Virus record (IMG/VR): IMGVR_UViG_3300032011_000113
Location: 1-25,742 of that record
Source: a virus
Strand: one strand, 5' to 3'
DNA length: 25,742 nt
Under the pieces are notes generated by a model that ran no database searches, was not told the origin of the DNA, and saw nothing but the letters and a program-made list of their open reading frames with translations. Below, one piece after another: positions 1,508 through 20,803 of this stretch (position 1 is its first letter; every line of letters begins with the position of its first letter). The translations under genes were made by a program, and so were the position numbers.

Positions 1508-2002
1508 ATGCATCTTAAAAAATATATAGTAGAAGTACCTAACTTTCCAATACAGGGTGTGAACTTTAAAGACATATCTCCGTTACTAGCAGACCACAGA
1601 ACATTTAGGTCGGCAATTGTAGATATGGGTAGGTTAGTTGTAAATCCCGATTATTGGATTGGTATAGATGCTCGTGGATTCATATTTGCCTCGGCACTTT
1701 CGATGGTCTTTGGTGGTGGAGTTGTATTATGTAGAAAGAAAGGTAAGTTGCCACCACCCGTAGAATCTGAGTCTTATGCTTTAGAGTATGACACGGCTAC
1801 ATTAGAAATAAAAGAAGGCAAGGGAACTGCCGTCATAGTAGATGATGTACTGGCTACTGGTGGAACATTAAGAGTAGTTAATCATCTGGCAGAAAAGGCT
1901 GGTTATGATGTCAAAGATAATTTGGTATTGATTGATTTAAAATATGTACCAACGGTTGTAGATTTTAATTTAAAAGTAAAAAGTTTAGTCCAGTATGAAT
2001 AG
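1508..2002 (+). CDS. apt: Adenine phosphoribosyltransferase
   Basis: This 164-residue type I phosphoribosyltransferase is close to the usual bacterial APRT length of about 170-180. It should convert adenine and PRPP to AMP and pyrophosphate in the cytoplasm. The N-terminal part has PNFPIQGVNFKDISPLL (11-27), typical of APRT (usually FPKPGI.FRDITPLL). It continues with GIDARGFIFA (52-61), the RKKGKLP loop (76-82), YALEYDTATLEI (90-101) and the PRPP-binding VIVDDVLATGGTL (109-121). All expected motifs are intact. Only a weak GGGAA precedes the ATG. The gene overlaps the following nucleosidase by 8 bases, implying that the two act together: the nucleosidase would release adenine and this enzyme would capture it. 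Another purine base specificity cannot be excluded, but the motifs favour adenine. Confidence 0.9.
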   Translation: MHLKKYIVEVPNFPIQGVNFKDISPLLADHRTFRSAIVDMGRLVVNPDYWIGIDARGFIFASALSMVFGGGVVLCRKKGKLPPPVESESYALEYDTATLEIKEGKGTAVIVDDVLATGGTLRVVNHLAEKAGYDVKDNLVLIDLKYVPTVVDFNLKVKSLVQYE

Positions 2003-2594
2003 GAGAGATGTATTGATAGTATCTGCTCTTGAACAAGAGACGGATGGTCAACTTGGGGAATATAGAGTTTTACATACTGGAGTTGGTAAAGTAAATGCCA
2101 CGATGGGATTAACAAAAGTATTACAAAAGGCACATCTATATTATTTACCACCAATGCCGAAACTTGTTATAAATTATGGAACTGCTGGTAGTAGGGATTT
2201 GCAAATAGGTGAATTAGTCGATTGCACTAAGTTTGTACAGAGAGATATGAATATAACACAATTAGGTTTTTATGAAGGCCAGACACCATTTGAGAGTCCT
2301 AACACTATGCATGTACTATCTACTTCTAAATTCAACCCTATAAAGAAACGGATTGCATGTGGTACAGGAGATAGTTTTGTAGATGATATAAAAAAAGAAA
2401 GTCTTTATGTTCAGGTATTTGATATGGAGGCATATGCTTTGGCAAAAGTATGCCGTGATTATAATGTACCATTCATATCATTTAAGTATATAACTGATAA
2501 TGCAGATAAACATTCCGCTAAGAATTGGGAAGAAAACTGCTCTGATGGAGTTCAATTATTTAAAAGTGAGGTTCTTTCAAATATCAAGTGGTGA
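1995..2594 (+). CDS. Nucleosidase of the MTA/SAH nucleosidase (PNP/UDP phosphorylase) superfamily
   Basis: This 199-residue enzyme probably cleaves the N-glycosidic bond of adenine nucleosides such as methylthioadenosine or S-adenosylhomocysteine. Visible family motifs are SALEQE (10-15, matching the AMEEE strand with the catalytic glutamate), GVGKVNA (29-35), NYGTAGS (60-66), GTGDSFV (123-129), FDMEAYALAKVC (142-153, whose glutamate contacts the ribose hydroxyls in MTA/SAH nucleosidases) and ITDNAD (166-171, position of the purine-binding aspartate). The length is slightly below the 230 typical of MTA/SAH nucleosidases. Two starts are possible: the ATG at 1995, which gives a fuller first strand, or a TTG at 2013 lying 7 bases after a perfect AGGAG at 2001-2005. 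The stop shares a base with the next ATG at 2594. Exact substrate is uncertain; a nucleoside phosphorylase or AMP nucleosidase relative is possible. Confidence 0.82.
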   Translation: MNRRDVLIVSALEQETDGQLGEYRVLHTGVGKVNATMGLTKVLQKAHLYYLPPMPKLVINYGTAGSRDLQIGELVDCTKFVQRDMNITQLGFYEGQTPFESPNTMHVLSTSKFNPIKKRIACGTGDSFVDDIKKESLYVQVFDMEAYALAKVCRDYNVPFISFKYITDNADKHSAKNWEENCSDGVQLFKSEVLSNIKW

Positions 2595-4226: not shown

Positions 4227-4514
4227 TTGTTACATACGATAATAACTATTTTACTTGGAGTTATTGCATCCTTTTTGGGTGTAGTGACTTTCTATGCATT
4301 AAAGAGAATCAATACATACGAAAAAATAATACTAAATTTTAATAATACCATAGACTTAATAAAACATCAACTTAAAGTAATAGACGATAAAGGTACATTT
4401 GAATCCGATGACGAAGTTGGTTTTTTCTTTGAAGAGATAAAACAACTTGGGAATCAATTAGAAGAGTTATTCGAAACCGAGGTTGATGATGAAAAAACGC
4501 AAGAAGAAAAGTAA
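4227..4514 (+). CDS. Small single-pass membrane protein
   Basis: This 95-residue protein has one N-terminal membrane helix (about residues 4-26, IITILLGVIASFLGVVTFYAL) shown here in summary: hydrophobic throughout with two small-residue positions. It is followed by a helical region and an acidic C-terminus with FESDDEVGFFFEEIKQL (about 58-74). The start is a TTG directly after the upstream stop; a start further downstream would delete the membrane helix. The end overlaps the sigma factor gene by 26 bases. The topology suggests a membrane-tethered cytoplasmic domain. Function unknown. Confidence 0.6.
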   Translation: MLHTIITILLGVIASFLGVVTFYALKRINTYEKIILNFNNTIDLIKHQLKVIDDKGTFESDDEVGFFFEEIKQLGNQLEELFETEVDDEKTQEEK

Positions 4515-5193
4515 AATATATTTTGGTACACCAGTTCATGATGCCATTGTAAAATATAACTATGAAGAAGATGTAGAGCTTAGACATAAGATATACACAG
4601 AAGAAATACATGCAGCATTTTTAAAACTTGCTGAGAATATAATTAACACATATAAATTTACTTATTTTGATTATGGATTTAGGGATTTGCAAGAAGAAGT
4701 GGTATCTAATCTTGTAATCAATATGCACAAGTTTGATGAAACAAAGGGTTCAAAGGCCTTTAGTTACTTTAGTGTTGTTGCTAAAAATTATCTTATATTG
4801 AATAATAATGCTAATTATAAAAAACTTAAAATTCATGATAACATTGATACTCTTTATGAACATGGAGTAAACGATAGTGAAATAGAAAAATCACCATCAA
4901 TCGATATATTCATAAAAACAATTACTTATTTTGAAGATCATTTGGAAGAATTATTTCCAAAACAACACGATAAAAATGTAGCGGAGTCAATATTGTATTT
5001 ATGTAGGAATAAAGATAATATTGATAATTTCAATAAAAAAGCTTTATATATAATGATTCGAGAAATGACAGATGTCAAGACATCTAAAATAACTCAAATC
5101 TCTAATGTATTCCGTAAAATATACCCAAAAATACAAGAAGAAATTCTGAGTAAAGGGCATATAGATAACTTAGCTAATACTGGATCTCTATAA
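4489..5193 (+). CDS. gp55: Late-transcription sigma factor, gp55-like
   Basis: This 234-residue protein is probably the phage sigma factor that directs host RNA polymerase to late promoters. The basic N-terminus is followed by YFGTPVHDAIVKYN (about 11-24) and a helical region matching sigma70 region 2. Within it lie LQEEVVSNLVINMHKFD (about 67-83) and KGSKAFSYFSVVAKNYLI (about 86-103), which parallel the F-x-YF-x3-x-N-x-x-I core of T4-like gp55 proteins. The C-terminal half is less conserved. At about 234 residues it is longer than T4 gp55 (185). The ATG at 4489 lies 6 bases after GAGG (4479-4482); an ATG at 4486 and a TTG at 4483 are in the same frame. It sits directly upstream of the baseplate operon. 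Assignment is from motif recognition, not a search; another region-2-like sigma factor is possible. Confidence 0.72.
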   Translation: MKKRKKKSKIYFGTPVHDAIVKYNYEEDVELRHKIYTEEIHAAFLKLAENIINTYKFTYFDYGFRDLQEEVVSNLVINMHKFDETKGSKAFSYFSVVAKNYLILNNNANYKKLKIHDNIDTLYEHGVNDSEIEKSPSIDIFIKTITYFEDHLEELFPKQHDKNVAESILYLCRNKDNIDNFNKKALYIMIREMTDVKTSKITQISNVFRKIYPKIQEEILSKGHIDNLANTGSL

Positions 5194-5228: not shown

Positions 5229-5624
5229 ATGGAAAAAGACTTTAAAATATTCGGCGATAAGAACTTTTCGGATTTATCTCAAGAGATATACGAGAATTCT
5301 AAATTAAAGAAAACTCAAATTGAGCTTTTAATCCAAGAGGTGCATGGTTACATTCAAGGTATTGAAGATATAGCAATTGTGGGTCCTGTATTAAAAGAAC
5401 TTTTGGATGTTGGCGTCAAGAATGATGACAATCTTTTAAAGTTAGCAACTGTAATCCAAAGAATAATGAACAAACACCAAACTATTGATGATAGTGATGT
5501 TAGTTTATTAAGTGAATCTGAAAAAGAAGAATTAATGACTTCACTGGAAGAAGCTGCTACAGTATTACAAAAAAAGTCTGATGATATTGGTGTAGATAAA
5601 GTTAGACAAAAGTATAACGAATAA
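5229..5624 (+). CDS. Hypothetical protein at the head of the baseplate operon
   Basis: This 131-residue acidic protein is mostly helical. The N-terminal third has MEKDFKIFGDKNFSDLSQ, the middle is a leucine-rich helical bundle (about 30-80), and the C-terminal part is acidic with SEKEELMTSLEEAA (about 98-111). It has no cysteine cluster and no membrane segment. The TAA overlaps the ATG of the spike gene (TAATG), so the two are translationally coupled. That makes a role in baseplate hub assembly plausible, either as a chaperone or as a small structural part. No family was recognised and there is no visible ribosome site; an inverted repeat occupies the upstream region. Confidence 0.72.
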   Translation: MEKDFKIFGDKNFSDLSQEIYENSKLKKTQIELLIQEVHGYIQGIEDIAIVGPVLKELLDVGVKNDDNLLKLATVIQRIMNKHQTIDDSDVSLLSESEKEELMTSLEEAATVLQKKSDDIGVDKVRQKYNE

Positions 5625-6889
5625 TGTCTACTATACCATTCCATCTTGGAACTGTCCATAGAGTTTACACCGATAATAGAGGTGGTAAGGGCTCAGAAAA
5701 ATCTAATACAAATATGATAAAGCTGAAGGGATTAGATTCGCCATTACCTACAGTAGCAAAAGAACAATTTGCAAGACCTTTATTTAGAGGTGTACATGAT
5801 TCTATCACAAAGGGTGATTTGGTTTTATTTTGTATTTTACCACATAGAAAAGTTTATTATATAGGACCTTTGAATTCATTTAATAATCCAAATTACTCGC
5901 CAAATCCTACTTATTCTAAAATAAAACAATATCGTGGCATTGATCATAATATTGCATTAGATGGTTTAGGTTATAGTGAATTATACCCAAGAATACTCAC
6001 CAAGCCGTTAAATAAAACTTATTCGAGAGATTTAGATTTGGATTTTATTATAGAGGACAGGGGGGATCTTATCAACACAACAGCAGTAGAACATGCTAGA
6101 TTTAGTGATTTGGTTTTTGATGGTAGACATGGCAATTCGATTAGAATAGGTTCAAGAGCTGTAAATCCTATTTTGACTATACATAACAATAGACTTTCGA
6201 GTGAAGTGGAAACATTATCGCAGGGTTCAGTTGTGTCAATGATGTCAGTTGGCTCAATAGAACAAAATTTTATGGAATATGGATTTCGACTTTCCATCGA
6301 TACTGATAGAGATGAGGAAGATAATTTTAAATTAAATGGTGGTAATATTAGTGGTGAAGATTCATATGATTATAATTACTCATTAGTAAATCCAGATGAA
6401 GCAGATGAAGAAGACAGAGTAGATTTTGATCAAATGATAATTTTTTCTGATAGAATAACATTTGATGCGAGAAGTCAAAATGCTGGAGACTTTACTGTAT
6501 CTGCAAACAGAAATATTAATTTTGGTGCAAGAAAAAACTTCACATTAAATAATAAAGGATTTTCAGTTATTAATTCTGGTAATATTTATTTAGGAAAGAA
6601 AGCAAAAGATAAAACTCAACCAATGGTGTTGGGTGAAAAGCTGAGAGAATTGTTGGAACAGATAGTACAAGTATTAAATAATGCTAATGCACTTGTGCAA
6701 GGAGTACCTTTGCCATTGGTGGATAGTGCTGGTATTTCATTAAAGGATACTAAAGTGACAAAAAACATTACAGAAATATTAGAACAATTAGAAGAAAGAA
6801 CACTTAATGATGAAGAAATTATACAAAATGATGGTCCACAGTTTATGAGCCATCATCATTACATAGAACAAAACAACAGTAGGAGTTAA
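5624..6889 (+). CDS. gp5: Baseplate central spike/hub protein, gp5-like, without lysozyme
   Basis: This 421-residue protein has the layout of contractile-tail spike proteins. An N-terminal OB-fold-like beta domain (about 1-95) contains KGDLVLFCIL and KVYYIGPL. A middle region follows with GRHGNSIRIGSRAVNP (about 168-183). Next is a run of short beta strands (about 275-335, with SDRITFDARSQNAGDFTVS and NINFGARKNF) resembling the strand repeats of a triple-stranded beta-helix. Last comes a helical segment with QPMVLGEKLRELLEQIV (about 336-352), and the C-terminus carries an HHH run (positions about 412-414). No lysozyme domain like that of T4 gp5 is visible between the OB fold and the helix; length is below T4 gp5 (575). 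It precedes gp25 and gp6, the V-W-J order of P2. Confidence 0.72.
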   Translation: MSTIPFHLGTVHRVYTDNRGGKGSEKSNTNMIKLKGLDSPLPTVAKEQFARPLFRGVHDSITKGDLVLFCILPHRKVYYIGPLNSFNNPNYSPNPTYSKIKQYRGIDHNIALDGLGYSELYPRILTKPLNKTYSRDLDLDFIIEDRGDLINTTAVEHARFSDLVFDGRHGNSIRIGSRAVNPILTIHNNRLSSEVETLSQGSVVSMMSVGSIEQNFMEYGFRLSIDTDRDEEDNFKLNGGNISGEDSYDYNYSLVNPDEADEEDRVDFDQMIIFSDRITFDARSQNAGDFTVSANRNINFGARKNFTLNNKGFSVINSGNIYLGKKAKDKTQPMVLGEKLRELLEQIVQVLNNANALVQGVPLPLVDSAGISLKDTKVTKNITEILEQLEERTLNDEEIIQNDGPQFMSHHHYIEQNNSRS

Positions 6890-6891
6890 TA

Positions 6892-7335
6892 ATGAAGGTT
6901 AATATATTTAAGAAATTAATTAGAGATATAATAAGAGAAGAATTAGATTATAGTTTTTCTCGACTTGGCAAAGAGTTAAAAGAAGTAGTAGTTAATGGTA
7001 ATATTGGTAATATAAATGAAGATAGAACACAGGCACCACAACCTACGGACTTTAAAAAATTAATGAATAATTCGGCCAGTTCCAATTCCAACATTCCCAC
7101 ACCCAAATCAAATGTTTCTAGTCCCAGAGTTAAAAATCCTATTTTGGATAGTTTATTGCAAGAAACTGCTGCAGCAGGCGATTGGAAAGGTATCGAAGGG
7201 GAAGGGGTAGAAGTCGAATCAGTTCAAGATAATGTTGATAAATTACCAGACCATTTGGCTAGTGCTTTATCAAAAGATTATTCGCAAGTAATGAAAAAAG
7301 TAGACGAAAAGGCGAAGTTTAAAAATGGCGCTTAA
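6892..7335 (+). CDS. Hypothetical baseplate-operon protein
   Basis: This 147-residue protein has a basic amphipathic N-terminal helix (residues 1-30, IFKKLIRDIIREELDYSF). A low-complexity linker rich in Ser, Asn and Pro (about 45-85) follows, then NPILDSLLQETAAAGDW (about 82-98) and an acidic tail. The start has a good AGGAG (6881-6885) six bases upstream. The last 11 bases overlap the next gene. The helix-linker-short-motif design suits an assembly factor or a small connecting subunit between spike and wedge. That is inference from position; no family was identified. Confidence 0.75.
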   Translation: MKVNIFKKLIRDIIREELDYSFSRLGKELKEVVVNGNIGNINEDRTQAPQPTDFKKLMNNSASSNSNIPTPKSNVSSPRVKNPILDSLLQETAAAGDWKGIEGEGVEVESVQDNVDKLPDHLASALSKDYSQVMKKVDEKAKFKNGA

Positions 7336-7678
7336 GGATAAAATAAAACAGGCTTTTGAAAAAAGTATAGGTGGTTCGTTAGGTCCAAAATCATCACCTG
7401 AAATAGAAAACCTTGCTGAAGATTTAACTAAGGCGATAGCTAAGTATGTCGGTGATCTTACTTTTAAAGTTGAGGATTTGAAAGGCGAGGGGGTAATAAA
7501 GCCAGGTGATATAAAAATAGTCCCACCTACTGCTGGATTCAACACGACACTTGTACCTATATCGGTTAATATAAGTAAATTAAAACCAAAGGGGTTGAAG
7601 GATAGTTCTAATGCTAATGCTTCGGTGGTTAAAGTGGATAAAGACGAAAATGAAAAATTAAGTGGGGTTAGTGTTTAA
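7325..7678 (+). CDS. Hypothetical baseplate-operon protein
   Basis: This 117-residue protein has an N-terminal helical part (MALKDKIKQAFEKSI..., about 1-45, including an amphipathic helix with LAEDLTKAIAKYV). A short beta part follows (about 46-90, GEGVIKPGDIKIVPP), and the C-terminus is polar. It lies between the spike side and gp25 and overlaps both neighbours, by 11 bases upstream and by one shared base of TAATG downstream, which indicates coupled translation. Position suggests a minor baseplate component, possibly linking hub and wedge. Function unknown. Confidence 0.72.
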   Translation: MALKDKIKQAFEKSIGGSLGPKSSPEIENLAEDLTKAIAKYVGDLTFKVEDLKGEGVIKPGDIKIVPPTAGFNTTLVPISVNISKLKPKGLKDSSNANASVVKVDKDENEKLSGVSV

Positions 7679-8115
7679 TGGCAATAGTCGATAGAAGAAC
7701 GAATCAGTTTGTTGAAGATAAAGACACAAGAGTAAGTGTTGGTATTGATTTCCCATTAACGCTATTCCCAAACCAAGATGGATATTTTAAAACAACCAAG
7801 ACTACTATTGATTCAATAAAAAATAACATAAAATTATTATTACAAACCCAAAGGGGTGAAAGAGTTTTTCAGCCGTCTTTGGGGATGAATGTAAAACGAT
7901 TTATATTTGAGCAAATTGATGAGAATACTGAAATAGAAATCGAAAACGATATTGTTGATACTTTTAAAGTTTGGATGCCCTTTGTTGATGTGAGAGATAT
8001 AGAAGTAAATATTGATTCTTCAACTGGAAATGCCAATAGAATAGGTATCAATATAGTATTTAGTATTAGTAGAGCACCAAATAGTTTAGAATCAGTAGGA
8101 GTTGTATTGGAGTAA
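7678..8115 (+). CDS. gp25: Baseplate wedge protein gp25-like (GPW/gp25 family)
   Basis: This 145-residue wedge subunit is equivalent to T4 gp25 (132 residues) and P2 gpW. It anchors the first sheath ring and joins the gp6/gp7 wedge core. Diagnostic parts are the N-terminal strand with IDFPLTLFP (about 23-31), the helix TTIDSIKNNIKLLLQT (about 42-57), the family signature TQRGERVFQPSLGMNV (57-72), the acidic helix DENTEIEIENDIVDTFKVWMP (81-101 in part), and the following VDVRDIEV strand. The start overlaps the previous stop (TAATG). It is directly followed by gp6, as W is followed by J in P2-type tails. Family members are structural despite the old lysozyme-like name. Confidence 0.92.
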   Translation: MAIVDRRTNQFVEDKDTRVSVGIDFPLTLFPNQDGYFKTTKTTIDSIKNNIKLLLQTQRGERVFQPSLGMNVKRFIFEQIDENTEIEIENDIVDTFKVWMPFVDVRDIEVNIDSSTGNANRIGINIVFSISRAPNSLESVGVVLE

Positions 8116-8118
8116 AAA

Positions 8119-10044
8119 ATGGCAACTAATATAAAATACACGAGTAAAGATTTTTCTTCGATTAAAGCTGATTTGATCGAATATACTAAGTCTTACTTTC
8201 CTGATACCTATAAAGATTTTAATGAATCTTCACCTGGTATGATGTTGATAGAATTATCAAGTTATGTCGGTGATGTATTAAGTTATTATATTGATTATAA
8301 TTATAAAGAAAATGTACTGTCAACTGCTACCGAAAAAAGGAATGTTAGAAGGTTAGCTGAATTTTTAGGGTATAAGCCATCTAATAAGACTCCATCGGTT
8401 GTTAGATTGAAAGTTACACATGATGTTGGGGTGGATGGTAATAAGAATCCGGATTTAAGTGAATTACCAACGATTTCACCAGGATTACAAGTCAAATCGA
8501 ATATAGATAGTGAATTGGTATTTGAAACAACTGATGATATCGATTTCAGTATTTCAGGATCACCTGATGTTCCACTTATTAGCCCACCGAGTCTCGGTAG
8601 TAATGGGTTGGCTACTGGATATACTTTAAGTAGATATGTCAGGGCTATATCTGCAGAAACTAAAACTAAATCATTTACAATTACAAGTCCAACTAAATTT
8701 TTAGAATTGGATTTGAGCGATGATAATGTTGTTGATATATTGGATGTGAAAGATAGTTCGGGGCAAAAATGGTACGAGGTTGATTATTTAGCACAAGAGA
8801 GAATTTTAAAGGAAACTCATTATAGTGATGATGATGCTAATCGAAATGTAAATGGTTATAATCAAGGAGAAGGTATTGACGATACTTCATTGATATCAAT
8901 TCCTTATACCGTAGATTATATAAAAACAAATAAAAAGTTTGTAAAGAAATTTGATGTAGATAGCAATTCGACTAAATTGATGTTTGGTAATGGGTTATAT
9001 AGATTCAATGTAACAGGTTCTTCTAATACGAGTATATTCTCAACAATCGAGCAAGCTGGATTATCCCTCAATGGCCAAGAAGTATCATCTGTAAATCAGG
9101 GTATTAGTGATTTAGTTGCAACTAATAATTTAAATTTAGGTGAAACTCCATCGAATACTATTTTGACAATAAGATATAGAGTAGGGGGTGGTCCTAATTC
9201 TAATGCACAAGTTGGGGAAGTAACCGAAGTCCAAAATGCTCCATCCGGTGTTAATATAACTGTTACGAATGATGAGCCAGCAGTCGGTGGAACTGATGGG
9301 CAAACTGTAGACGAGATTCGTAATAATGCAAATGCATTTTTCTCATCGCAATTAAGATGTGTTACTCGTGAGGATTATCAAGCTAGAATAATGAATCTTC
9401 CAGCAAAGTTTGGTAGTATTGCTAAAGCTTATGTGGAACGAATTGATAACCAGGGGGGTCTGCAAGTTAATGTATTATCCCATAATCAAAATAAACAATT
9501 AGTTCAAACACCACAATTGATATTACAAAATGTGATGACTTATTTGAATCAATATAGGATGGTAAATGATCATATTTCTTTTGGGATCAATCTCGGTACT
9601 GAAGATTCACCAAATATCTTTTCTGGATATGTTGTAAATTTTGGGGTTAAATTTGAAGTTAATATTGATAGAAGGCTTGCTAATGATAAAAGTGATATTA
9701 AAGTAGAAGTTATTGATACTATAAAAGATTTTTTCAGAATAGATAAAATGCAATTTAGACAATCAATCAATATGAATGATTTGCAATACAGCATATTGGG
9801 ATTAGAGGGGGTGATTGGTATTAAGGAATTAAAACTTTTTCAAAATGAAAGTGGGGGTGGAATTAGTAGAAATATGGCTTATTATCAAGCAGACGGAGAA
9901 GTGATACCTAATGGGGAATCTAATTATGGGTTTGAATATAATTTTGAGAATGCTGAAGAGAACGGAATTATAAGACCATCAGTAACACCATCGATATTTG
10001 AATTAAGAAATCCTGATAGAGATATTTATGGGAAGGTGATATAA
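8119..10044 (+). CDS. gp6: Baseplate wedge protein gp6-like (baseplate J)
   Basis: This 641-residue protein is close to T4 gp6 (660). It forms the inner ring of the baseplate by dimerising within and between wedges. The N-terminal region has YTSKDFSSIKADLIEYTKS (7-25), SSPGMMLIELSSYVGDVLSY (38-57) and the helix ending NVRRLAEFLGYKPS (about 74-87). These are the best conserved parts of the family. The baseplate J core is in the second half (about 398-520): DEIRNNANAFFSSQLRCVTREDY, here named in outline, followed by FGSIAKAYVER and ISFGI. GGAG lies six bases upstream of the ATG. The gene shares a base with the next start (TAATG). Confidence 0.93.
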   Translation: MATNIKYTSKDFSSIKADLIEYTKSYFPDTYKDFNESSPGMMLIELSSYVGDVLSYYIDYNYKENVLSTATEKRNVRRLAEFLGYKPSNKTPSVVRLKVTHDVGVDGNKNPDLSELPTISPGLQVKSNIDSELVFETTDDIDFSISGSPDVPLISPPSLGSNGLATGYTLSRYVRAISAETKTKSFTITSPTKFLELDLSDDNVVDILDVKDSSGQKWYEVDYLAQERILKETHYSDDDANRNVNGYNQGEGIDDTSLISIPYTVDYIKTNKKFVKKFDVDSNSTKLMFGNGLYRFNVTGSSNTSIFSTIEQAGLSLNGQEVSSVNQGISDLVATNNLNLGETPSNTILTIRYRVGGGPNSNAQVGEVTEVQNAPSGVNITVTNDEPAVGGTDGQTVDEIRNNANAFFSSQLRCVTREDYQARIMNLPAKFGSIAKAYVERIDNQGGLQVNVLSHNQNKQLVQTPQLILQNVMTYLNQYRMVNDHISFGINLGTEDSPNIFSGYVVNFGVKFEVNIDRRLANDKSDIKVEVIDTIKDFFRIDKMQFRQSINMNDLQYSILGLEGVIGIKELKLFQNESGGGISRNMAYYQADGEVIPNGESNYGFEYNFENAEENGIIRPSVTPSIFELRNPDRDIYGKVI

Positions 10045-11138
10045 TGCATAGATATTTTTTTACAACTAAAGATGCTTTTATTAATAGTGGTTCAGATCAA
10101 ATCACAGGCGATGATTGGAAGAATAAGAATACTGGCCAAGATGAGATACTTGAATTAAAGAAAGTATTTTGGAATAGGGATTTCCATTATTCAACTCGAG
10201 CATTAATACAATTTGACGCTGATGAGATAGAGAATTATATTAGTGCATCTGTTTTACCAAGTACTTATAAATTAAATTTAAGACTTTGGGAAACCGAAGG
10301 AACAAGTGGGTTAAGTGAAACTTATAAGATTGCTGCTTATCCAGTAAGTGAGTCTTGGGATGAGGGTGTTGGTAAAGAAGTTGATGAGCCAAAAACTACA
10401 GACGGGGTTAGTTGGAAAAATAGAAAATACCCAACAGGTGGTGCTGAAGTAGCTTGGTCAACTCTTGGTGGGGCATATATAGCTACCGATGAAGTAACAC
10501 AATCCTTTTCAGCGGAATCTCCTGATATTGATATGGATATAACTGCTGTTGCTAAAAAATGGTTTAGTGGTGAAAATAATAATTATGGGTTATTATTAAG
10601 ATTTTCTGGTAGTAGAGAGACATCAACTGGAAGTTTTGAAGACCTTAAATTTTTCTCAAGGCAAACCAATACAATTTATTCTCCAAAAATAGAACTTAAA
10701 TGGGATGACCATTTGCCAGCTACTGGTTCTAATACTGGTAGTTTAACTGCATTAGATTTATCAGGTACCGCGGAGAATTATTTATATCCAATGCATGTTA
10801 GAGAGGCATATAAAGAAACGGAAAAAGTTAAGTTTAGGTTTGGCGCCCGTAAGAGATATATTAACAAAAGTTTTACGACATCAGTACAGACTGTAAGTGG
10901 TAGTTATTTTGCTGAAGGTAGTGCTTCATATTCTATAATTGATATGGCGACTAATGAGTCTGTTGTTCCATTTAGTGCCTATACTACTATGAGTTGTGAT
11001 ACGGTGTCTCCATATTTTACACAAGATTTAAATGGTTTTGAACCGAATCGTGCTTACAAGATATTAATAAAAGTTAATCACAATGATGGGCAAAAAATAA
11101 TATATGATGACGATTTCGAATTTATCCTGAGGGTATAA
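10044..11138 (+). CDS. DNRLRE-like beta-sandwich virion protein
   Basis: This 364-residue protein lies directly after gp6. The first two thirds resemble a DNRLRE-type domain, a beta-sandwich found in secreted and virion proteins and thought to bind polysaccharide. Supporting pieces are RALIQFDADEIE (about 52-63), YKLNLRLWETEGTSG (about 75-89), the VSESWDEG turn (about 100-107), VSWKNR and AWSTLGGAYI (about 125-150), and DITAVAKKWFSGENNNYGLL (about 165-184), the typical closing strand pair. The last third (about 245-364) is another beta-rich domain. No signal peptide is present, as expected for a virion part. It may sit at the baseplate edge as an adhesin or fibre-attachment protein. Domain call from pattern recognition. 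Confidence 0.68.
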   Translation: MHRYFFTTKDAFINSGSDQITGDDWKNKNTGQDEILELKKVFWNRDFHYSTRALIQFDADEIENYISASVLPSTYKLNLRLWETEGTSGLSETYKIAAYPVSESWDEGVGKEVDEPKTTDGVSWKNRKYPTGGAEVAWSTLGGAYIATDEVTQSFSAESPDIDMDITAVAKKWFSGENNNYGLLLRFSGSRETSTGSFEDLKFFSRQTNTIYSPKIELKWDDHLPATGSNTGSLTALDLSGTAENYLYPMHVREAYKETEKVKFRFGARKRYINKSFTTSVQTVSGSYFAEGSASYSIIDMATNESVVPFSAYTTMSCDTVSPYFTQDLNGFEPNRAYKILIKVNHNDGQKIIYDDDFEFILRV

Positions 11139-11139
11139 T

Positions 11140-13293
11140 ATGTCATATCATGATAAAAAAGGCAAGGGGAAAAAAGGTAAGGGGCCCATGTCTTCATTGG
11201 ATGGGCAGAGTAGAATCGAGAATGATAATCCCATAGTACAAACAGGCCTAACTGCTTTATCAGGCGAGTGGGTATACGAATGGAATAATCAAGATTATAC
11301 TGGACCATATCATGTGCACCAAGATGGTACTGTTATGGCAGGGGACGGTGAGTTAGGTTCAGTACATGATATTCAACCAAATAAAATTATAGTTTCAATT
11401 AATCAGGATTTATCTTCTATACTTTCGCCTCCTGATCCTGATTTAAGTGAGGAGTCTACTAGTGAATCATCAACGGTTTTGGGGGCCTATGATAGAAACG
11501 AACTTCGTGAGCTTGTTAGTGATTTAATTTATAAAAGCTTTTTTCAATTGAGAAATGAAGATGCCGATGACAGTATAGCAAGCTTAGCAGATGAAGAAAT
11601 TTTATCTCTACAGACAACTATTCGTGATGGTTTAGAACAAACCGGTAGAACGGAAGATGAACCTTTGGTCTTTTATAAAAAAGATAGAAATACCTTAGAA
11701 AGTAGTTTAGATTTAGAAAAAAGTTTTTTTCTAGGAGTTTGTGATACTATATGGGATGATCTTTATACGGTAGCAGAAGAGGGTGGTGGGATAACTACTC
11801 AGCATCTTGAGGATAATGGTTTTAGGGTTTATACTGAATTACCCTACCGTGTGACAGATTTAGATATACAACCCTCAACCTCTGGCCCTCAAAAATTTGC
11901 TTGGACAAAGAGACTTATGGGACATTATGGCGATGGTTATGAATTGGGCGTAAATGATTTTATAATAGCTGTAAGAATAGAATTTTGGTCCGATGGTGGT
12001 GTATATAATGGTGTTGATTCTATTCATTATGTTGATGATGATTATTGGACTAATGTATTAAATTTAAGCAATATAGTAAAAACAAAATTTGGCACGAGAA
12101 TAAAACCTGAAAAAGCTCGTGAAGTATTGGATACTACTATTTTTGAATTGTTACCAAATCAAACTACACGACAGGATGAGATAAATACTTTTTTTAATAA
12201 TTTTAATAGTTTAATTGGCAATGCTCCACCATTTATTGATGCGAATGGCGATGGTGTTGGGGAGCATGTACCATCTGCACAAGAATCATTAGATGAACAA
12301 AGTCGAATTAGTTATGAAAATAAATCTACTGCTTATATAACAAGATTGGATAATCAGGCTAATACTAATAATCAAGGTAAAACGCTTGAGTCGATGAGAA
12401 ATGAATTAAATAAATATTTAGGTGATGTGGATAATGTTGTTCAAGTTATTTCTGACCAGCGGCCTGTATATGAAAATAAATCAAGTGGGTTTCTAAAGAT
12501 AAGAAGACCGAATCAAGCTATTATATTGAGGGATACTGTTGGTGATGAATTAGAATTTCAAAAAGTAGTTACGGTGAATAATGTAACGGGCCCTTCTTTT
12601 TTAGTAGAGGGATTTACCATAACAATGTGGGTGAGGTTTGTTAATAAAGTTTCAGAGGGTACTTTGTTTAATTTCGGCAATCCATTATCTTCTACAAATC
12701 CTTATGGATTTAGATTAGATACAAAAGTAAATGAATATAATGGTAATTTTTATCGTTATTTGAGATTAGTAGTGGCAGAAAATATTGGAAGTTATGAAGG
12801 TATGACTAAATTAAGAGATAATCATTTTGGGTATACGGGGCCAGGTCCAAATTTGGGTAGATTAGAAGAAAGAAGTAGAAATCTTAAACATTTACAGGGG
12901 CATAACGCCTTTCCACAAATACCAACTGGTGATTTGGATGAGTGGTATTTTATTTGCGCGACTTATAATCCCTATGTTGATGAGGATTATAGTTTAGACT
13001 ATGCTACTGATGTAAGAACTGATTTACTTACCAATAAACAATTTTGGTTAAATCACATAAGTATTGCTAACACCGATTCGAGTGGGGATGTTTTGTCTTC
13101 TGTGGGACAAGATTTAACTGATGGTAGATTACTTGGTGCAAAATGTAAAGTGGAAGTTATAAGTAGAAGTGAATTATTAAGAGCTCGTGGTTTTAGGGTT
13201 GGTGATGAGCAATTAACTATGGATGTATCTACACCATATGATACACAACTTGCTGAGACTCAGACTCAAGAAACCGAAACATTTAGTGGGTAA
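11140..13293 (+). CDS. Virion protein with a C-terminal LamG-like domain
   Basis: This 717-residue protein has a lysine/glycine-rich N-terminus (residues 4-16), then WVYEWNNQDYTGPYHVHQDG (44-63), a motif recognisable in marine phage tail proteins. A large helical and mixed region follows (about 90-460). The LamG/concanavalin-like beta-sandwich is at about 460-665, with GFTITMWVRF (491-500), FNFGNP, and LDEWYFICATYNP (about 599-611) as the usual core strands. The end has KVEVISRSELLRARGFRVG (about 670-688). LamG-type folds often bind sugars or proteins, so a host-surface contact or structural role is likely. It is part of the large insertion between the gp6 and gp7-like genes. It has no ribosome site of note; the ATG lies one base after the previous stop. 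Confidence 0.7.
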   Translation: MSYHDKKGKGKKGKGPMSSLDGQSRIENDNPIVQTGLTALSGEWVYEWNNQDYTGPYHVHQDGTVMAGDGELGSVHDIQPNKIIVSINQDLSSILSPPDPDLSEESTSESSTVLGAYDRNELRELVSDLIYKSFFQLRNEDADDSIASLADEEILSLQTTIRDGLEQTGRTEDEPLVFYKKDRNTLESSLDLEKSFFLGVCDTIWDDLYTVAEEGGGITTQHLEDNGFRVYTELPYRVTDLDIQPSTSGPQKFAWTKRLMGHYGDGYELGVNDFIIAVRIEFWSDGGVYNGVDSIHYVDDDYWTNVLNLSNIVKTKFGTRIKPEKAREVLDTTIFELLPNQTTRQDEINTFFNNFNSLIGNAPPFIDANGDGVGEHVPSAQESLDEQSRISYENKSTAYITRLDNQANTNNQGKTLESMRNELNKYLGDVDNVVQVISDQRPVYENKSSGFLKIRRPNQAIILRDTVGDELEFQKVVTVNNVTGPSFLVEGFTITMWVRFVNKVSEGTLFNFGNPLSSTNPYGFRLDTKVNEYNGNFYRYLRLVVAENIGSYEGMTKLRDNHFGYTGPGPNLGRLEERSRNLKHLQGHNAFPQIPTGDLDEWYFICATYNPYVDEDYSLDYATDVRTDLLTNKQFWLNHISIANTDSSGDVLSSVGQDLTDGRLLGAKCKVEVISRSELLRARGFRVGDEQLTMDVSTPYDTQLAETQTQETETFSG

Positions 13294-13299
13294 TAAAAA

Positions 13300-16200
13300 A
13301 TGGCTAAGTTTACATTAGCAGAAAATATTTTTGATGGTATTGGTAATTTGGAACAATCAGTTGGTAGTTATAAAGCTGATGAAGTTCAATTAGTAAGTGC
13401 TAGTATTTTAGAGGTTTTTGAGCCTGATAGGGGGGTAAATGTTCTTGTTCCGAATCCAAGATTAAATGATAATAATACTTCTTTAACTGAAAGTCTTGAT
13501 AATAGAAAATCACTGGGAACTTTTACATTAAATGACCGAGATTTTTGGGAAAATAATAATTTTAATGAGACAACATTTGAATCTTATTTAAAGGATAATT
13601 TAGAAACAGTACAAACTATAATTTTACCGACACCGGATGGTGATATTGTAGATAGAAAAAGTCTGGTTTCTAGTTCACCTACTTTTAATTATTCTATTGA
13701 TGCTGTACCTTTTGTCATTAATCCAAAGAATAAAAATATGGTAAGACTGGATAGGTATTGGGATAAGGAAATACATACTACAAAATATAACTTAGCAACG
13801 GAAGGTAAAATAAATTATTATTTGTACCCCAGACATAGCGGTAGAACTGAAGATAATAATATTGAGATTTTTAATATAAGAGGTAAAAAAACAGGTGGTG
13901 GTGGAAAAAACAGATTTGATTTTTATGCTTCGCAATCTATTGCGGCAAAGGATGATAGGGGATATTATTTGTTTGGATTAGATTGGGGCGATGGTTCTCC
14001 ATTAGAATATACAAATGAACCTAAACTATTAGAGAGTACTGTTTTATTCGAGCATTTTTATGAAAAGCCTGGATTTTATTCTATAACAGGAGTAGTTTAT
14101 GTCTACGATGGAAGTAATGTTCAAAATTATGAAAAATTTCAAACTAATATATTATTAAATCCATCTTTAAATTATGAATCAAATTTATATGGATATGATA
14201 ATTTTGCTTCTATTGGTGGGATTTCACGGAATTCTAAATTTGTGAAATCTCTTTATAATATTATGGGTATTAATCCTTTACCTAATGAAGATGGAATTTA
14301 TGATACCTCACGAGTTTTTACTGAAGCATTTGATAGATTAAATCAATTAGATAAAATAGATATTTTAAATACATTAAGTAAAATAAATTATGATTTGATA
14401 CCAGATGATTTGAGAAGTATTATAACTCCTTATCAGGGTGAAATAGATGGGGTTGATAGTACTATTTTGGGATGTATGGATTATGGTCAAATTACTGAAT
14501 TGAATCCAGCGGGTATATCTGCTGATAATTATAATCCGTCTGCAACTGTGGATGACGGGAGTTGTGTTTATCAAAGAGAATTGACAATTGAAATTGATAT
14601 TGATGTGCCAATTCCTATTGATATTGTGATAAATCCACAATATGAGGAAAGTGATGATAGAAGACAGCTATGGACTATTGAACCTAATTCATCTCATACA
14701 TCCTTTACATATACCTATGATAGTAGAGATTTTCAAAAATTATGGTTAGCAGCGCAAGTTTACAATTACAACCCAAATAGTATACTTTATTATGATTATA
14801 ATTGGGATGGTTTTTATGTGGGCGATAACAAAATTGATTCACCCTACCACATGTACGCAAGTTTTTATTGGACACCTGGATATGATGTAATAACTGCTAA
14901 ATTTATTTATATAGATGATACTCCACCCCCAGTAATACCAACAGACATGGATTGGGTTGAGTTGGGCGGAGTAAGTTATGGAGCTGGATTTGATAACTGG
15001 GGTGGAGTTTATAATTTGTATCAAAACCTAATGACCATTAATTCATTATCAAATCCATCAAAAATAACATCGACCTGGGGGCTAACTTATTATACCACGG
15101 AGGATTCGTTACGGGAGATAAGGGGTTTTTCACAAACTGGATTTCAACCTATTTGGTTTACAGAGGAAATGCATAGTAGTTTATCAGAGATTACTATCCC
15201 ACAGGAAGATAGTCTTGGGGAAAATCAACCATTCTTTCTTGGGGTTGAAAGAGATGCTATATTATTACAATGGTATTACCCATCAGATATTATCGAAGCG
15301 ACAGTACAGGAGGGTATTAGATATAGTTCCGAGGTTGAATCGTTTAATATTTATAGGTATCGATGGGATCCAATTACTGATGGGTGGATTTCAGATAACT
15401 CGGCCGAATTCGGAGCTCCTATAGCTTCAATACCAGCTAATCAACCAACTGAGTGGTTAGATAGAGTTATAGCATTGGGTAATGATTTTATCAATGCAAA
15501 TAATAATCCAACTTCACCTGTTGGAAACGATGCAAATGTCTTTCCAACGAGACACCCTAACCTTCTTCCCTCAAACATTGAGGAGGATTTTGGAAATTGG
15601 ACTTTCATAGACTTTGAAATTACTGAACCAGAATTTGAGGGAGATAATTTTTATTACACTGGACATTTTACTGACGAGAGGGGCAATGAGTGGGATTTCA
15701 ATGGGACAAGTGATTATGATTTATTCCCATCTTTTGGGATAGTATGGCAACCTCCTATAGAGGATATAGTTTTTCAGTTAACAGAAGCTTTTTTTAGTGG
15801 TGATGTATCATACCCAAGCACCATTGAAGATTATGGGTATTTTGACAAAGATTTAGCATATGGGTATTACATTTACGAACTAAGCTCAGTTGATGCGAAT
15901 GGTAATGAATCTGAAAAAATACAATACCCACCGTCCCAAGGAGGAAATGTACAGTATCCAACTATTGGATTGGGTATGGCTGATCAAAATGGTAATTTAT
16001 ATTTTAATTCGCGTGGAATAATGCCGACTCCAACTGATAATACTCCCAATCCAATTGTACTTCCAGATGAGCCTTTAATACATATGAGTCATTATACAAT
16101 ACAATTGCGATGGAATACGGTAGATGAATATTATACCTATGGTATCGAGGGTGATTTTGGTAGCTATAGAATAACAGTTATAAATAATACTTCCGGAATT

Positions 16201-18036
16201 ACTTCTGTGTTTGATGTAGAGGATATAACAACAGATAGATTTACTTTTGGTAATTCACCGACATATCCCACTTCTGAGTTTGGTGAGTTTAATGCTAATG
16301 ATGATTTATATTTTCAGCTACAAGTAGTGGATGGGACTGGAAATACATCTGATGCAATACAATTGGAGATAGTTCCAGAGTTTTTGATTACTGGAGATAT
16401 TACATTTGAGTCTTATACACAGAACGAGATGATAGTTGAATCACTTGGGTATGATTATATAGCATTACAATTTTTGGATGATAATATTATAATACCAACT
16501 GAGGTTGATGGTATTACTCAGTATAGAATAGTACATGTTTATAATGCAAGTGAAACTGTCCGTAATTTGCATATAAAACCATTTATAAAAACAACAATAG
16601 CCGGCAATGAAATAAGACAGTTTCCATTTGAAAATAATTACGAAGTAATTACTCAAAATGATAATCCCCCTGAAGCTAATTATGAAATGGGGTATGGTGA
16701 TAATATGGGAACTTTTACGATAATAGATCCTGACAATACTCTTCAAGGTCAACCTTTTTATTTGGGTTTATTTGCTGATAATCATTTTACTGGCTTATTA
16801 AGTGAAACTGATGAGCTCATATTTGGAGAACCCTTTGTTCCAGAAATTGATATTAGGGTTTTTTCTGATGATTATACGAAAATTGGTATAGATGAATTCC
16901 CAAATTATAATACAGATAGTGGAGTTTTTTCATTGGAAACTCAAGTACCTGTGCGAGGTAGATTTTCAAGTACTTATGATTTAGCTGATTTTGATGGGTA
17001 TTATACTAATGATAATCAGTTGATTTCAACTGATTTTGATTTTAATTTGGAATTAAATCAAAATATCCTTGATAATTCCTATGAAGGGTCCAACGGTATC
17101 TTTAGTTATGATTTGTATATGAAAACTACACAAGTACCACAATTTGTTATTACTTTGGATACGGAGGGGCCAACGGGGGTTGGTATAAATCAAGAGCCAA
17201 CTTTAGATTCAACAACTGAAGTATTTGCTATGAGAAATCAAGATATAACTATAAATGCTGATACCACCAGTTACCAATATATTTTTCAAAAATTTTTATG
17301 GACTATTCCAACTCCAGAACCATCATGGGTAAATGATACTGGTTTTACTTTACCAGATGGTGTTGGGGGAGAGATTTCACAAGGAAGTACGAATATGATG
17401 TTGAGGTTAAATCAAGCTTTGGCAGATAATGCGTATCATCCAGAAGATGGTGAAGGACTACCTCAAAATAATAATTCAACCTCTTTTACTTGGGATTTAT
17501 ATCCCGAACATCCTGTCTATTTTATTCCTATGACTGCAAAATCTGTTGAGAGAGTTGATATTAATTATCCTGCCATATCATTTGATGATAATCAGACGGA
17601 GTTTGTTGGTGGGTGGACTGATGCTCCATCTTTTCTTAATCAGTTTGTTTCTATAACATTTAATTGGAATTTAGAACCACTTATAGAAACTACTCAGATT
17701 GTAACTGGCGATACTATTGAAGCCCGACTTATACATGCATATAATCCTTTGATAACAGGAAATCAACATGTTATAGTGGATTTTGGATCTATTGACGCGA
17801 TGGAAGTACTGAATGATGGTACAGGATCGATAACAATGAATTTCAATAATATACTAGATGGAAATAATCAATTGAGTTATATACATCCTATAACATCTCA
17901 AATAGTATATCCCAACACTTTTATAATTGCTTTATATAAAAATGGGGATATTATGGCAATCGATACATCTGGTGATCCAAATACAATTTATGGTTCGGAT
18001 GAAATTACTATCATAGAAGCAGATGCAGGATTTTAA
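13300..18036 (+). CDS. Giant multidomain virion protein (PKD, Cys-pair module, fibronectin-like)
   Basis: This 1578-residue protein is the largest in the window. It has an N-terminal domain of unknown type (1-200). A PKD-like domain (about 205-285) is recognised by LFGLDWGDGSP (around 224-234) and the closing GFYSITGVVYVYD. A short module with one cysteine at each end (C392 and C422) reads GCMDYG...DNYNPSATVDDGSCVY. Several fibronectin-like or Ig-like beta domains follow, for example about 645-705 (AILLQWYYPSD), 860-875 (SVDANGNESE) and 929-1025 (MSHYTIQLRWNTVDEYY). The rest (1030-1578) is beta-rich, acidic and aromatic, without a recognised family. Catalytic motifs are absent. A long adhesin or fibre-like baseplate protein fits best. 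Length, composition and frame are continuous, with no sign of frameshift. Confidence 0.75.
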   Translation: MAKFTLAENIFDGIGNLEQSVGSYKADEVQLVSASILEVFEPDRGVNVLVPNPRLNDNNTSLTESLDNRKSLGTFTLNDRDFWENNNFNETTFESYLKDNLETVQTIILPTPDGDIVDRKSLVSSSPTFNYSIDAVPFVINPKNKNMVRLDRYWDKEIHTTKYNLATEGKINYYLYPRHSGRTEDNNIEIFNIRGKKTGGGGKNRFDFYASQSIAAKDDRGYYLFGLDWGDGSPLEYTNEPKLLESTVLFEHFYEKPGFYSITGVVYVYDGSNVQNYEKFQTNILLNPSLNYESNLYGYDNFASIGGISRNSKFVKSLYNIMGINPLPNEDGIYDTSRVFTEAFDRLNQLDKIDILNTLSKINYDLIPDDLRSIITPYQGEIDGVDSTILGCMDYGQITELNPAGISADNYNPSATVDDGSCVYQRELTIEIDIDVPIPIDIVINPQYEESDDRRQLWTIEPNSSHTSFTYTYDSRDFQKLWLAAQVYNYNPNSILYYDYNWDGFYVGDNKIDSPYHMYASFYWTPGYDVITAKFIYIDDTPPPVIPTDMDWVELGGVSYGAGFDNWGGVYNLYQNLMTINSLSNPSKITSTWGLTYYTTEDSLREIRGFSQTGFQPIWFTEEMHSSLSEITIPQEDSLGENQPFFLGVERDAILLQWYYPSDIIEATVQEGIRYSSEVESFNIYRYRWDPITDGWISDNSAEFGAPIASIPANQPTEWLDRVIALGNDFINANNNPTSPVGNDANVFPTRHPNLLPSNIEEDFGNWTFIDFEITEPEFEGDNFYYTGHFTDERGNEWDFNGTSDYDLFPSFGIVWQPPIEDIVFQLTEAFFSGDVSYPSTIEDYGYFDKDLAYGYYIYELSSVDANGNESEKIQYPPSQGGNVQYPTIGLGMADQNGNLYFNSRGIMPTPTDNTPNPIVLPDEPLIHMSHYTIQLRWNTVDEYYTYGIEGDFGSYRITVINNTSGITSVFDVEDITTDRFTFGNSPTYPTSEFGEFNANDDLYFQLQVVDGTGNTSDAIQLEIVPEFLITGDITFESYTQNEMIVESLGYDYIALQFLDDNIIIPTEVDGITQYRIVHVYNASETVRNLHIKPFIKTTIAGNEIRQFPFENNYEVITQNDNPPEANYEMGYGDNMGTFTIIDPDNTLQGQPFYLGLFADNHFTGLLSETDELIFGEPFVPEIDIRVFSDDYTKIGIDEFPNYNTDSGVFSLETQVPVRGRFSSTYDLADFDGYYTNDNQLISTDFDFNLELNQNILDNSYEGSNGIFSYDLYMKTTQVPQFVITLDTEGPTGVGINQEPTLDSTTEVFAMRNQDITINADTTSYQYIFQKFLWTIPTPEPSWVNDTGFTLPDGVGGEISQGSTNMMLRLNQALADNAYHPEDGEGLPQNNNSTSFTWDLYPEHPVYFIPMTAKSVERVDINYPAISFDDNQTEFVGGWTDAPSFLNQFVSITFNWNLEPLIETTQIVTGDTIEARLIHAYNPLITGNQHVIVDFGSIDAMEVLNDGTGSITMNFNNILDGNNQLSYIHPITSQIVYPNTFIIALYKNGDIMAIDTSGDPNTIYGSDEITIIEADAGF

Positions 18037-18038
18037 TT

Positions 18039-18734
18039 ATGGCTAAAATACATAACGGATTTGTAAATAAAGATTTTATTGATTCATTTAAAGATACTGG
18101 ATTAAATGATGTAGATATAGCAACAACAAAAGTTTATAAAGGAGTTAAACCAATGTGGCATCAACTTGGTTTTAAAAATCAAACTAAAGATAAACCAGAT
18201 AGTAAATTATATTGGAAAAATATAATACCTAAAGATTATACTTTTAAAAATATTGATGGTATGCAAACGATTGATGTTATTAATGAAGATGATGATAGTG
18301 ATATTGGAATATCAAGTGGGATGAAAATACCAAGAACTGAATATAAAGAAATTATTATAAGAGAATATCCTAATGTATTACAACAATGGCAAGGCGATCC
18401 TCGACCACATTATCCAGTTTTACCACAATTAGATAAATATGGAGTATTTACTGCAATAACTGGATCATCAATATTTTTTGGTTCAAAGAAAACTTGGGAT
18501 GGTGATGATGAAATTGCACCTATTACTAATTTAAAAGATACAGATCCTGATTTGGTCTTGAGTGTTGATTTTAATCAAAGTAATGCTGATGATTTGATTG
18601 ATAAAACAAATTTTAATAAAATTCATTATAATAAAGATTTTCAATTAAGTTTAGATGAGAATTTTAGATTAAAAACAGATACTATTATGGGTGATGATAG
18701 GTTAGAAAAAAACAAAACGAAACAGGCATTTTAA
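18039..18734 (+). CDS. Hypothetical virion protein
   Basis: This 231-residue protein of unknown family is polar and aromatic. Notable parts are PMWHQLGFKNQTKDKPDSKL (about 39-58), REYPNVLQQWQGDPRPHYPV (about 108-127) and a C-terminal segment with DFNQSNADDLIDKTNF (about 177-192) ending in EKNKTKQAF. The ATG is two bases after the preceding stop, and the TAA overlaps the next ATG (TAATG). Position in the late operon, with structural genes on both sides, is the reason to call it a virion protein. The next protein ends in a similar way (SDTQAY), which may be chance. Confidence 0.72.
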   Translation: MAKIHNGFVNKDFIDSFKDTGLNDVDIATTKVYKGVKPMWHQLGFKNQTKDKPDSKLYWKNIIPKDYTFKNIDGMQTIDVINEDDDSDIGISSGMKIPRTEYKEIIIREYPNVLQQWQGDPRPHYPVLPQLDKYGVFTAITGSSIFFGSKKTWDGDDEIAPITNLKDTDPDLVLSVDFNQSNADDLIDKTNFNKIHYNKDFQLSLDENFRLKTDTIMGDDRLEKNKTKQAF

Positions 18735-20803
18735 TGGCGTATATATTAAAAGAGAAATATCCATCAATTAAAACACCTGGTATTTATCCAGAAGCTACAA
18801 ACGAAGAGATAGGTTTGGATACTGATAACTTAGAAGACTTTTCTTTAGGTAATTGGAATTCTATCATAAAGGATAATAAATTATTTATTTCATATGCCGT
18901 AGGTGGATTGGATGTTATAGAAAATCCAATGGGTAGACCGGTAAAAATTAAATTTGGTGAAGGGACTTTCAATAGTGTTGTAAGTGGACTTGTAAGAATT
19001 CTAATAAAAAGAGAAGGCGATCAACAATCTGGATATGGTGATATTGTAGATGTATCTAATCCAAATTATCCACTTAATTATATAACAAACCCTCCGTCTA
19101 TAAATTATAACAACGAAATAACCGAGAGACTCACTCAAGTGGAAAGAGATAGATTTTTTGAAGCTTATGGATTTTACTTTGATTACAGTAGTGAGAATGA
19201 TTGGGACAATAGGGAGTTTAAAGAAAACTTAGGAATTGACTTTTCTGATGGATTTGCTTATATAGAAGAAAGATCTGAAGAGGATGAAGAAGCGACACTG
19301 GTTATGAGATTTGATAATGATATTTTAAATAAATTAAAAGATTTGGTTTATGAAAGAGAACTTGAACCCTATTACGATACAGATTCAGATTCTTGGACAC
19401 ATGAACTTTTTTTTCCAAACTCATTTCAAATAAGAAATCCGGCTGAGACTACATCTTCGGTATTGATTGATGATGTATTGTCTTTTCCATTTGATGAGAT
19501 AGATTCTTCTGAATTTAATAATCGTTGTCAATTTAATTTTACCGATGAATTAGAAGGTTCAACATCCGATTATTTTACAAATCTCGGAGCTCCATTATTT
19601 AAATATAATCCTGTGGCATTAACGGGTTCGGGGTATTTAGAAACATATGATTTAAATACTTCTGATTTACAGTTTAATGTTAATTGCGTGAATCAAAATA
19701 ATAATAATCTTTTATATTATGATATTGATGATGATAGGTATTTTGAAACTTCCTATCCTTTAAAAGTAATGCTTAATATAGGTTTATTTGGTAATGATGA
19801 TTTTGACAATACACCCATTCCAAGTACACAAGTATCTTATGGAATTCTTAGTTCATTTTATTTAGGACAAGATTTATTAAATCAATATATAGAAGATAGT
19901 ATAGGTTCTGGTATATATGATTCTCACTATAGGTATCAAGTTATACAATGGGGAGATGAGAAAAATTTATTAACCAATGATCAAATAGAAAGTTTATATT
20001 ATTTTAGTCTATATGATATGGATGGCTATCCACAGGCTGATAATTATATTGCTAAAAAATCTGTATCTTCTCAATATAATTCAATACCAATAGAAGAGCA
20101 AACACCTCATATTTATAATAAACCTGGTGTTAAATCAATAAAGATAGTTCTCTATAGGTATACTAGAGATCAAACTTTATTATTACAAACTTTTTTAATT
20201 ACAAAAAATATTGTAATAAATGATGGTAATTTGAAATCACAAGATTTTTCTCAATTTGGTGGAACAGAATTTAATTTTTTACCATTAGAAGATAGAAATC
20301 AAGCTATAGTTGGTGGATTATCAGCAAATTCTCAGTATAATATTTCGGTGGAAAAGATAGTAAAGGATGATAATTTTATTAAGGAAGATTATTTAGAAAG
20401 AGTATCTAGTATAGATTATGTTTTTAATTATAGTGAGTCATTATATGGGCAATCACCTGGACAAATCGATTTGGGGACAAATAGAATGTTTAAAGGTACT
20501 TATGATATATATGATTTTATTACGGATAATAAAAATAAAATAGTTCAAGATAATTTTGAAATAACAGAACTGCCAACCGATAGTTTTGCTACTGATATAT
20601 TTATAAATGATAGTAATTGTATTGTTGAATTAGTTCCTCATGAGTTGGAGTATTTAACTATTCCTAATCAAGCTGGAAATAATATAAAAGCAATCTTAAT
20701 TGGAGATTATAAAGTTAATCAACCAAAAGATGGACCAATACAACGGGATGAGGTGATGCAAATACCATCTTTAGAAGATAATAGTGACACACAGGCATAT
20801 TAA
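18734..20803 (+). CDS. Large hypothetical virion protein
   Basis: This 689-residue acidic protein has no recognised family. It is predicted mostly beta and loop, rich in Asp, Asn, Tyr and Phe like its neighbours. A stretch that looks best conserved is near 500-600: QDFSQFGGTEFNFLPLEDRN, then QAIVGGLSANSQYNISV, DDNFIKEDYLERVSS and GQSPGQIDLGTNRMF. No cysteine cluster, membrane helix or enzyme motif was seen. The start shares a base with the previous stop. It sits immediately before the gp7-like gene and may be a wedge-associated or fibre-attachment protein; this is inferred from position only. Confidence 0.72.
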   Translation: MAYILKEKYPSIKTPGIYPEATNEEIGLDTDNLEDFSLGNWNSIIKDNKLFISYAVGGLDVIENPMGRPVKIKFGEGTFNSVVSGLVRILIKREGDQQSGYGDIVDVSNPNYPLNYITNPPSINYNNEITERLTQVERDRFFEAYGFYFDYSSENDWDNREFKENLGIDFSDGFAYIEERSEEDEEATLVMRFDNDILNKLKDLVYERELEPYYDTDSDSWTHELFFPNSFQIRNPAETTSSVLIDDVLSFPFDEIDSSEFNNRCQFNFTDELEGSTSDYFTNLGAPLFKYNPVALTGSGYLETYDLNTSDLQFNVNCVNQNNNNLLYYDIDDDRYFETSYPLKVMLNIGLFGNDDFDNTPIPSTQVSYGILSSFYLGQDLLNQYIEDSIGSGIYDSHYRYQVIQWGDEKNLLTNDQIESLYYFSLYDMDGYPQADNYIAKKSVSSQYNSIPIEEQTPHIYNKPGVKSIKIVLYRYTRDQTLLLQTFLITKNIVINDGNLKSQDFSQFGGTEFNFLPLEDRNQAIVGGLSANSQYNISVEKIVKDDNFIKEDYLERVSSIDYVFNYSESLYGQSPGQIDLGTNRMFKGTYDIYDFITDNKNKIVQDNFEITELPTDSFATDIFINDSNCIVELVPHELEYLTIPNQAGNNIKAILIGDYKVNQPKDGPIQRDEVMQIPSLEDNSDTQAY

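Follow-up and report, generated by a model that had tools for sequence, protein, structure and literature searches.

An overlapping APRT and MTAN-type gene pair in a marine-type phage and its probable role in recycling SAM by-products

Two overlapping genes and their predicted products

The window analysed here is a 25,742-base IMG/VR virus record from a marine-type phage, in which a contractile-tail structural region is present. It carries two intact open reading frames, whose predicted products are an adenine phosphoribosyltransferase (APRT) and an MTA/SAH-nucleosidase-type protein (MTAN), and the two frames overlap by exactly 8 bases, as the initial annotation had read them (Table 1).

Table 1. 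Positions of the APRT and MTAN genes and of their conserved residues in the window
Feature	Position	Strand	Basis
APRT gene	1508..2002	+	164 aa; NCBIfam APRT equivalog above cut-off; AlphaFold model
APRT E93-Y94, catalytic loop	1784..1789	+	Corresponds to Glu104-Tyr105 of human APRT (4x44) when aligned; no variation in 58 viral APRTs
APRT PRPP-binding motif VIVDDVLATGGT	1826..1867	+	D112, D113, V114, A116, G118 and T120 invariant in 58 viral APRTs
Overlap of APRT end and MTAN start, 8 bases, ATGAATAG	1995..2002	+	Direct reading
MTAN gene	1995..2594	+	199 aa; PNP_UDP_1; nearest solved sequence Brucella MTAN 4pr3; AlphaFold model
MTAN catalytic Glu15	2037..2039	+	Invariant in 62 viral relatives; E. 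coli Glu12 position as judged from alignment
MTAN Asp143-Met144-Glu145, ribose-binding motif	2421..2429	+	Invariant in 62 viral relatives; aligns with DME/EME of solved MTANs
MTAN catalytic Asp168	2496..2498	+	E. coli Asp197 position; invariant in 62 viral relatives; aligns with ISD/LSD of solved MTANs

The APRT protein matched the Pfam family Pribosyltran (E 2e-11) and passed the NCBIfam equivalog NF002636 (157.2 bits vs. a cut-off of 125), with scores below cut-off for the other, stricter NCBIfam APRT models. Its AlphaFold model, made like that of MTAN with alignments of viral relatives, has a mean pLDDT of 94.3 and matched solved bacterial and human APRTs with Z scores of 22–24, mostly at 33–40% identity, reaching Z 24 over 163 residues. 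Judged by its sequence and modelled fold, the protein is most likely an adenine phosphoribosyltransferase, predicted to use adenine and PRPP.

The MTAN protein matched PNP_UDP_1 in Pfam (E 5e-17; 62.6 bits vs. a cut-off of 25.1) but scored below every curated NCBIfam cut-off of the MTAN type, namely TIGR01704 (58 vs. 73.8 bits), NF004079 (71.7 vs. 169 bits), TIGR01705 (71.9 vs. 152.2 bits) and NF004168 (85.7 vs. 129 bits). Therefore, it is named here as MTAN-type and not as an MTAN equivalog. The AlphaFold model (mean pLDDT 92.7) superimposed on the adenine- and methylthioribose-bound E. coli enzyme (1z5n; Z 22.2 and rmsd 2.2 over 187 residues) and on Brucella MTAN (4pr3; Z 22.1 and rmsd 2.5 over 189 residues). 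The initial annotation had stated that both enzymes keep their catalytic motifs, and the key residues indeed proved invariant in 62 viral MTAN and 58 viral APRT sequences, while the models matched solved MTAN (Z ~22) and APRT (Z ~24) structures. The folds and active-site residues also support the chemistry suggested at the outset, in which an adenine nucleoside would be converted to adenine and the adenine to AMP.

Several other features of the window were recorded. A small hydrophobic ORF (2588-2878), without a Pfam or PHROGs match, follows MTAN, and its start (GTG at 2588 or ATG at 2594) overlaps the MTAN stop. A late-sigma-factor-like gene (4483-5193; phrog_234, E 3e-6) lies upstream of the contractile-tail structural region (5624-25456), whose baseplate wedge protein is closest to those of Microcystis phage Mel-JY01 and Flavobacterium phage immuto (32–34% identity). 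Among the PADLOC models, one for a methyl-directed type II restriction enzyme hit the ORF at 301-846 weakly (E 0.0025), probably by chance. No SAM enzyme was identified within the window, which is a genome fragment.

Recurrence of the pair in phages and on bacterial chromosomes

A PHROGs search matched neither protein, and the recurrence of the pair was therefore tested in IMG/VR, where profile scans returned 508 relatives of MTAN and 213 of APRT. The 80 best relatives of each protein were retrieved and, together with other fetched loci, clustered at 90% identity, giving 77 clusters. Both genes were found in 55 of the 77 clusters, MTAN only in 15 and APRT only in 7, counts that, coming from a set biased to relatives of the window, do not give rates for phages in general. 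Several of the MTAN-only clusters end at a contig edge and one (L002) is bacterial; at least one APRT-only cluster is cut. The bacterial case, an MTAN match labelled 'Acinetobacter phage MD-2021a' (CAKLQH020000009), has ileS, lspA and ribF as neighbours, is probably bacterial DNA and was not counted as phage.

In all 55 two-gene clusters APRT came first, on the same strand as MTAN. The genes lay within 2 kb of each other in 54 of these clusters and overlapped in 31, and the overlap was exactly 8 bases in 21, usually with the sequence ATGARTAR. Chance pairing was excluded, because order, strand and often the 8-base overlap recur at ~35–45% protein identity. The adjacency noted in the window thus extends to related phages, and in Phage C48C1 (Kyanoviridae) the two genes overlap by 11 bases, 3' of nrdAB. 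Moreover, the identity matrices of APRT and MTAN were correlated (Mantel r 0.46; none of 2000 permutations reached this value), indicating that the two genes largely travel together. An exception was seen in L125-L135, where APRT is ~60% and MTAN ~35% identical to the window's proteins and the 8-base overlap is kept; this pattern would be explained if a gene had been replaced in situ or if MTAN had evolved faster.

No fused APRT–MTAN protein occurred among the fetched ORFs. MTAN was absent from 7 APRT-only records searched in full, and among 9 MTAN-only records APRT was found far off in one (G003) and as a marginal match in another (G020). An APRT-only phage clade (L137-L142 and L147) is represented by whole records without MTAN. 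Its members have sugar or nucleotidyltransferase-like genes downstream of APRT, and four of them (L137, L138, L141 and L142) encode a radical-SAM-like protein two genes upstream.

Cellular genomes hold the same arrangement. APRT was present within the fetched stretch in 25 of 80 cellular loci of the same MTAN subfamily, among them SAR116, Pelagibacter and Marinimicrobia, and was mostly upstream of MTAN on the same strand. The 8-base overlap was found in SAR116 and Marinimicrobia chromosomes, and in two Marinimicrobia loci (L163 and L164) the overlapping operon sits amid ordinary chromosomal genes. In Pelagibacter APRT is divergent from MTAN, and in two Alphaproteobacteria it follows MTAN. In trees that were built quickly and have weak deep branches, the APRT of the Marinimicrobia loci fell inside the phage clade containing the window, and the phage MTAN genes formed several groups among cellular ones; Marinimicrobia are thus suggested by sequence as a host lead, and a lead only, for the uncultured phage group of the window. 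The initial annotation had described a compact phage module. Its recurrence in phages is borne out, but bacterial chromosomes carry this operon too, 8-base overlap included, and the pairing is therefore not a phage invention.

metK and other genes around the pair

In six clusters (L029, L119, L121, L045, L053 and L057) metK, the SAM synthetase gene, lies between APRT and MTAN. It is accompanied by queF in L029, L119 and L121, overlaps the MTAN start in L045 and L057, and is one of several intervening genes in L053. In L149 and L158, which belong to another lineage, metK is within six genes of the pair. Among 50,697 phage records, 158 contained relatives of metK. A set of 30 long records yielded only four metK genes, three of which are located between APRT and MTAN.

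Other families linked to SAM were found nearby. In one group of clusters the pair is bordered by FkbM methyltransferase and B12-radical-SAM genes, in 13 clusters a protein with weak similarity to DNA methylases (just below cut-off) is encoded 3' of the pair, and radical-SAM domains scored above cut-off in 20 of the 30 long records. At least one of metK, FkbM methyltransferase, B12-radical-SAM and the DNA-methylase-like family was present within six genes in 28 of 54 clusters and none in 26, counts that are suggestive, having been taken without matched control regions. Stronger evidence comes from the location of metK, although related phages may register one event repeatedly and the metK cases may represent few acquisition events. 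The remaining neighbours include ThyX (11 clusters), IMPDH/GMP reductase (3 clusters), PhoH, glycosyltransferases and epimerases.

Further neighbourhood observations concern individual loci. Three genes recur together downstream of MTAN in L022 (1873-5888) and related loci; they encode the DNA-methylase-like protein of 13 clusters (535 aa), a PLP-enzyme-like protein and a 552-aa protein without a Pfam match, and could be a DNA base modification set. A NodU/TobZ-type carbamoyltransferase is encoded near MTAN in L003, where Pfam confirmed it, and in L015-L018 and L021, as judged from the start of the sequence. The C48C1 gene beside the pair that is annotated as 'NAD synthetase' (L001 6446-6940; OQ984149 CDS0110) matched the SegE GIY-YIG endonuclease family (E 1e-34). 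The label is likely an annotation error, and a reading of the pair as NAD repair was dropped because of this match.

Proposed role, alternatives and known systems

In E. coli, MtnN clears the inhibitory compounds SAH, MTA and 5'-deoxyadenosine, and the adenine is salvaged (PMC10986504). The same three compounds inhibit SAM-dependent enzymes, and their cleavage by MtnN yields adenine (PMC10986504; PMC6302742). Following these published MtnN steps and the phosphorylase plus apt route to AMP put forward for Prochlorococcus (PMC11698098), the pair most likely removes SAM by-products and recovers their adenine as AMP. We favour, as a probable reading, that it is a bacterial-type two-enzyme adenine-salvage operon carried by the phage. 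The predicted substrates of MTAN are MTA, the SAH that methyltransferases leave behind and the 5'-deoxyadenosine released by radical-SAM enzymes; their hydrolysis would relieve product inhibition and free adenine. APRT would then join adenine to PRPP, and the resulting AMP would replenish the pools of nucleotides and SAM. Where metK lies between the two genes, as in some phages, it would add a supply of SAM. We infer that the two enzymes act consecutively during infection and that the phage benefits.

By-product recycling is the best supported reading because metK occurs between the genes and methyltransferase-like and radical-SAM neighbours are common. The conservation of active sites and folds, the presence of the pair in 55 of 77 clusters and the position of metK all speak for it. 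Against it stand the MTAN scores under all curated cut-offs, the window fragment in which no SAM enzyme was identified, the 26 of 54 clusters without any of the four SAM-related families within six genes, and the phages with a single gene.

The main rival to SAM by-product recycling is general purine salvage, in which a broad MTAN acting on adenosine or deoxyadenosine would turn nucleosides derived from the breakdown of host nucleic acid into AMP that serves phage replication, and the SAM link would be incidental. A comparable route from deoxyadenosine to AMP, through a nucleoside phosphorylase and apt, has been proposed for Prochlorococcus (PMC11698098), and the nrdAB genes near the pair in C48C1, together with the ThyX and IMPDH/GMP reductase neighbours, are consistent with such salvage. 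However, the phage nucleosidase belongs to the hydrolytic MTAN-type enzymes and is structurally closest to MTA/SAH enzymes, and metK separates the genes in six clusters, and we consider general salvage unlikely, though the foremost alternative.

Still less probable is that the pair is a passenger, a bacterial APRT–MTAN operon picked up by a region that collects metabolic genes and of little benefit in infection. The invariance of the catalytic residues despite deep divergence argues against this, as do the correlated divergence of APRT and MTAN and their retention together despite insertions of PhoH, metK or queF, even though cellular operons share the order and overlap, phage and cellular lineages are intermixed in both trees, and many different metabolic genes lie nearby.

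Some members of the PNP superfamily are defence effectors, and APRT could in principle recapture free adenine, which lends general plausibility to a counter-defence role, whereby the pair would remove adenine-nucleoside signals or rebuild AMP after host effectors have destroyed nucleotides; yet the pair had no match beyond chance level to known anti-phage defence families in PADLOC models (E 0.01–0.04), no counter-defence genes were recognised next to it, and the chromosomal copies of the operon sit among ordinary genes, so that this role is very improbable. We would give as little credence to a combined scheme, in which a phage-run SAM and adenine cycle (the pair, with metK in some phages) also counters defence through AMP rebuilding or signal removal. 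Among the roles initially put forward, relief of SAM by-products together with adenine salvage thus gained support from metK between the genes, whereas the defence idea found only chance-level PADLOC matches.

We class the pair among phage auxiliary metabolic modules, where it stands out for its recurrence, its cellular counterpart and its link to metK. No description of a phage APRT–MTAN operon or APRT–metK–MTAN unit was found in the literature searched, the coverage of which was partial. Methionine-metabolism genes are known singly in marine viruses; the present analysis points to a recurrent two- or three-gene unit of APRT, sometimes MetK, and MTAN. Such a unit would let a phage sustain SAM-dependent chemistry and recapture adenine, and it makes testable how SAM and purine metabolism are linked in infected cells.

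The mtnN/pfs gene has been reported as a marine viral auxiliary metabolic gene and filed under cysteine and methionine metabolism (PMC10653327). The window likewise carries an MTAN-type gene in marine viral DNA, but that report names the gene alone and its text has neither an APRT partner nor an operon. Compared with the MtnN/Pfs enzymes of Brucella melitensis (4pr3) and E. coli (1z5n), the window MTAN shares the fold and the catalytic Glu and Asp positions, although this predicted enzyme is ~26% identical, shorter and below the curated MTAN cut-offs. The window APRT resembles bacterial and human Apt in its full-length fold, PRPP motif, catalytic Glu-Tyr loop and NF002636 match, but is slightly shorter, belongs to a phage branch and overlaps a nucleosidase. 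Finally, the chromosomal APRT–MTAN operon of SAR116, Marinimicrobia and other bacteria agrees with the phage pair in gene order, strand, 8-base overlap and homologous proteins, whereas in phages metK, queF or phoH may lie between the two genes.
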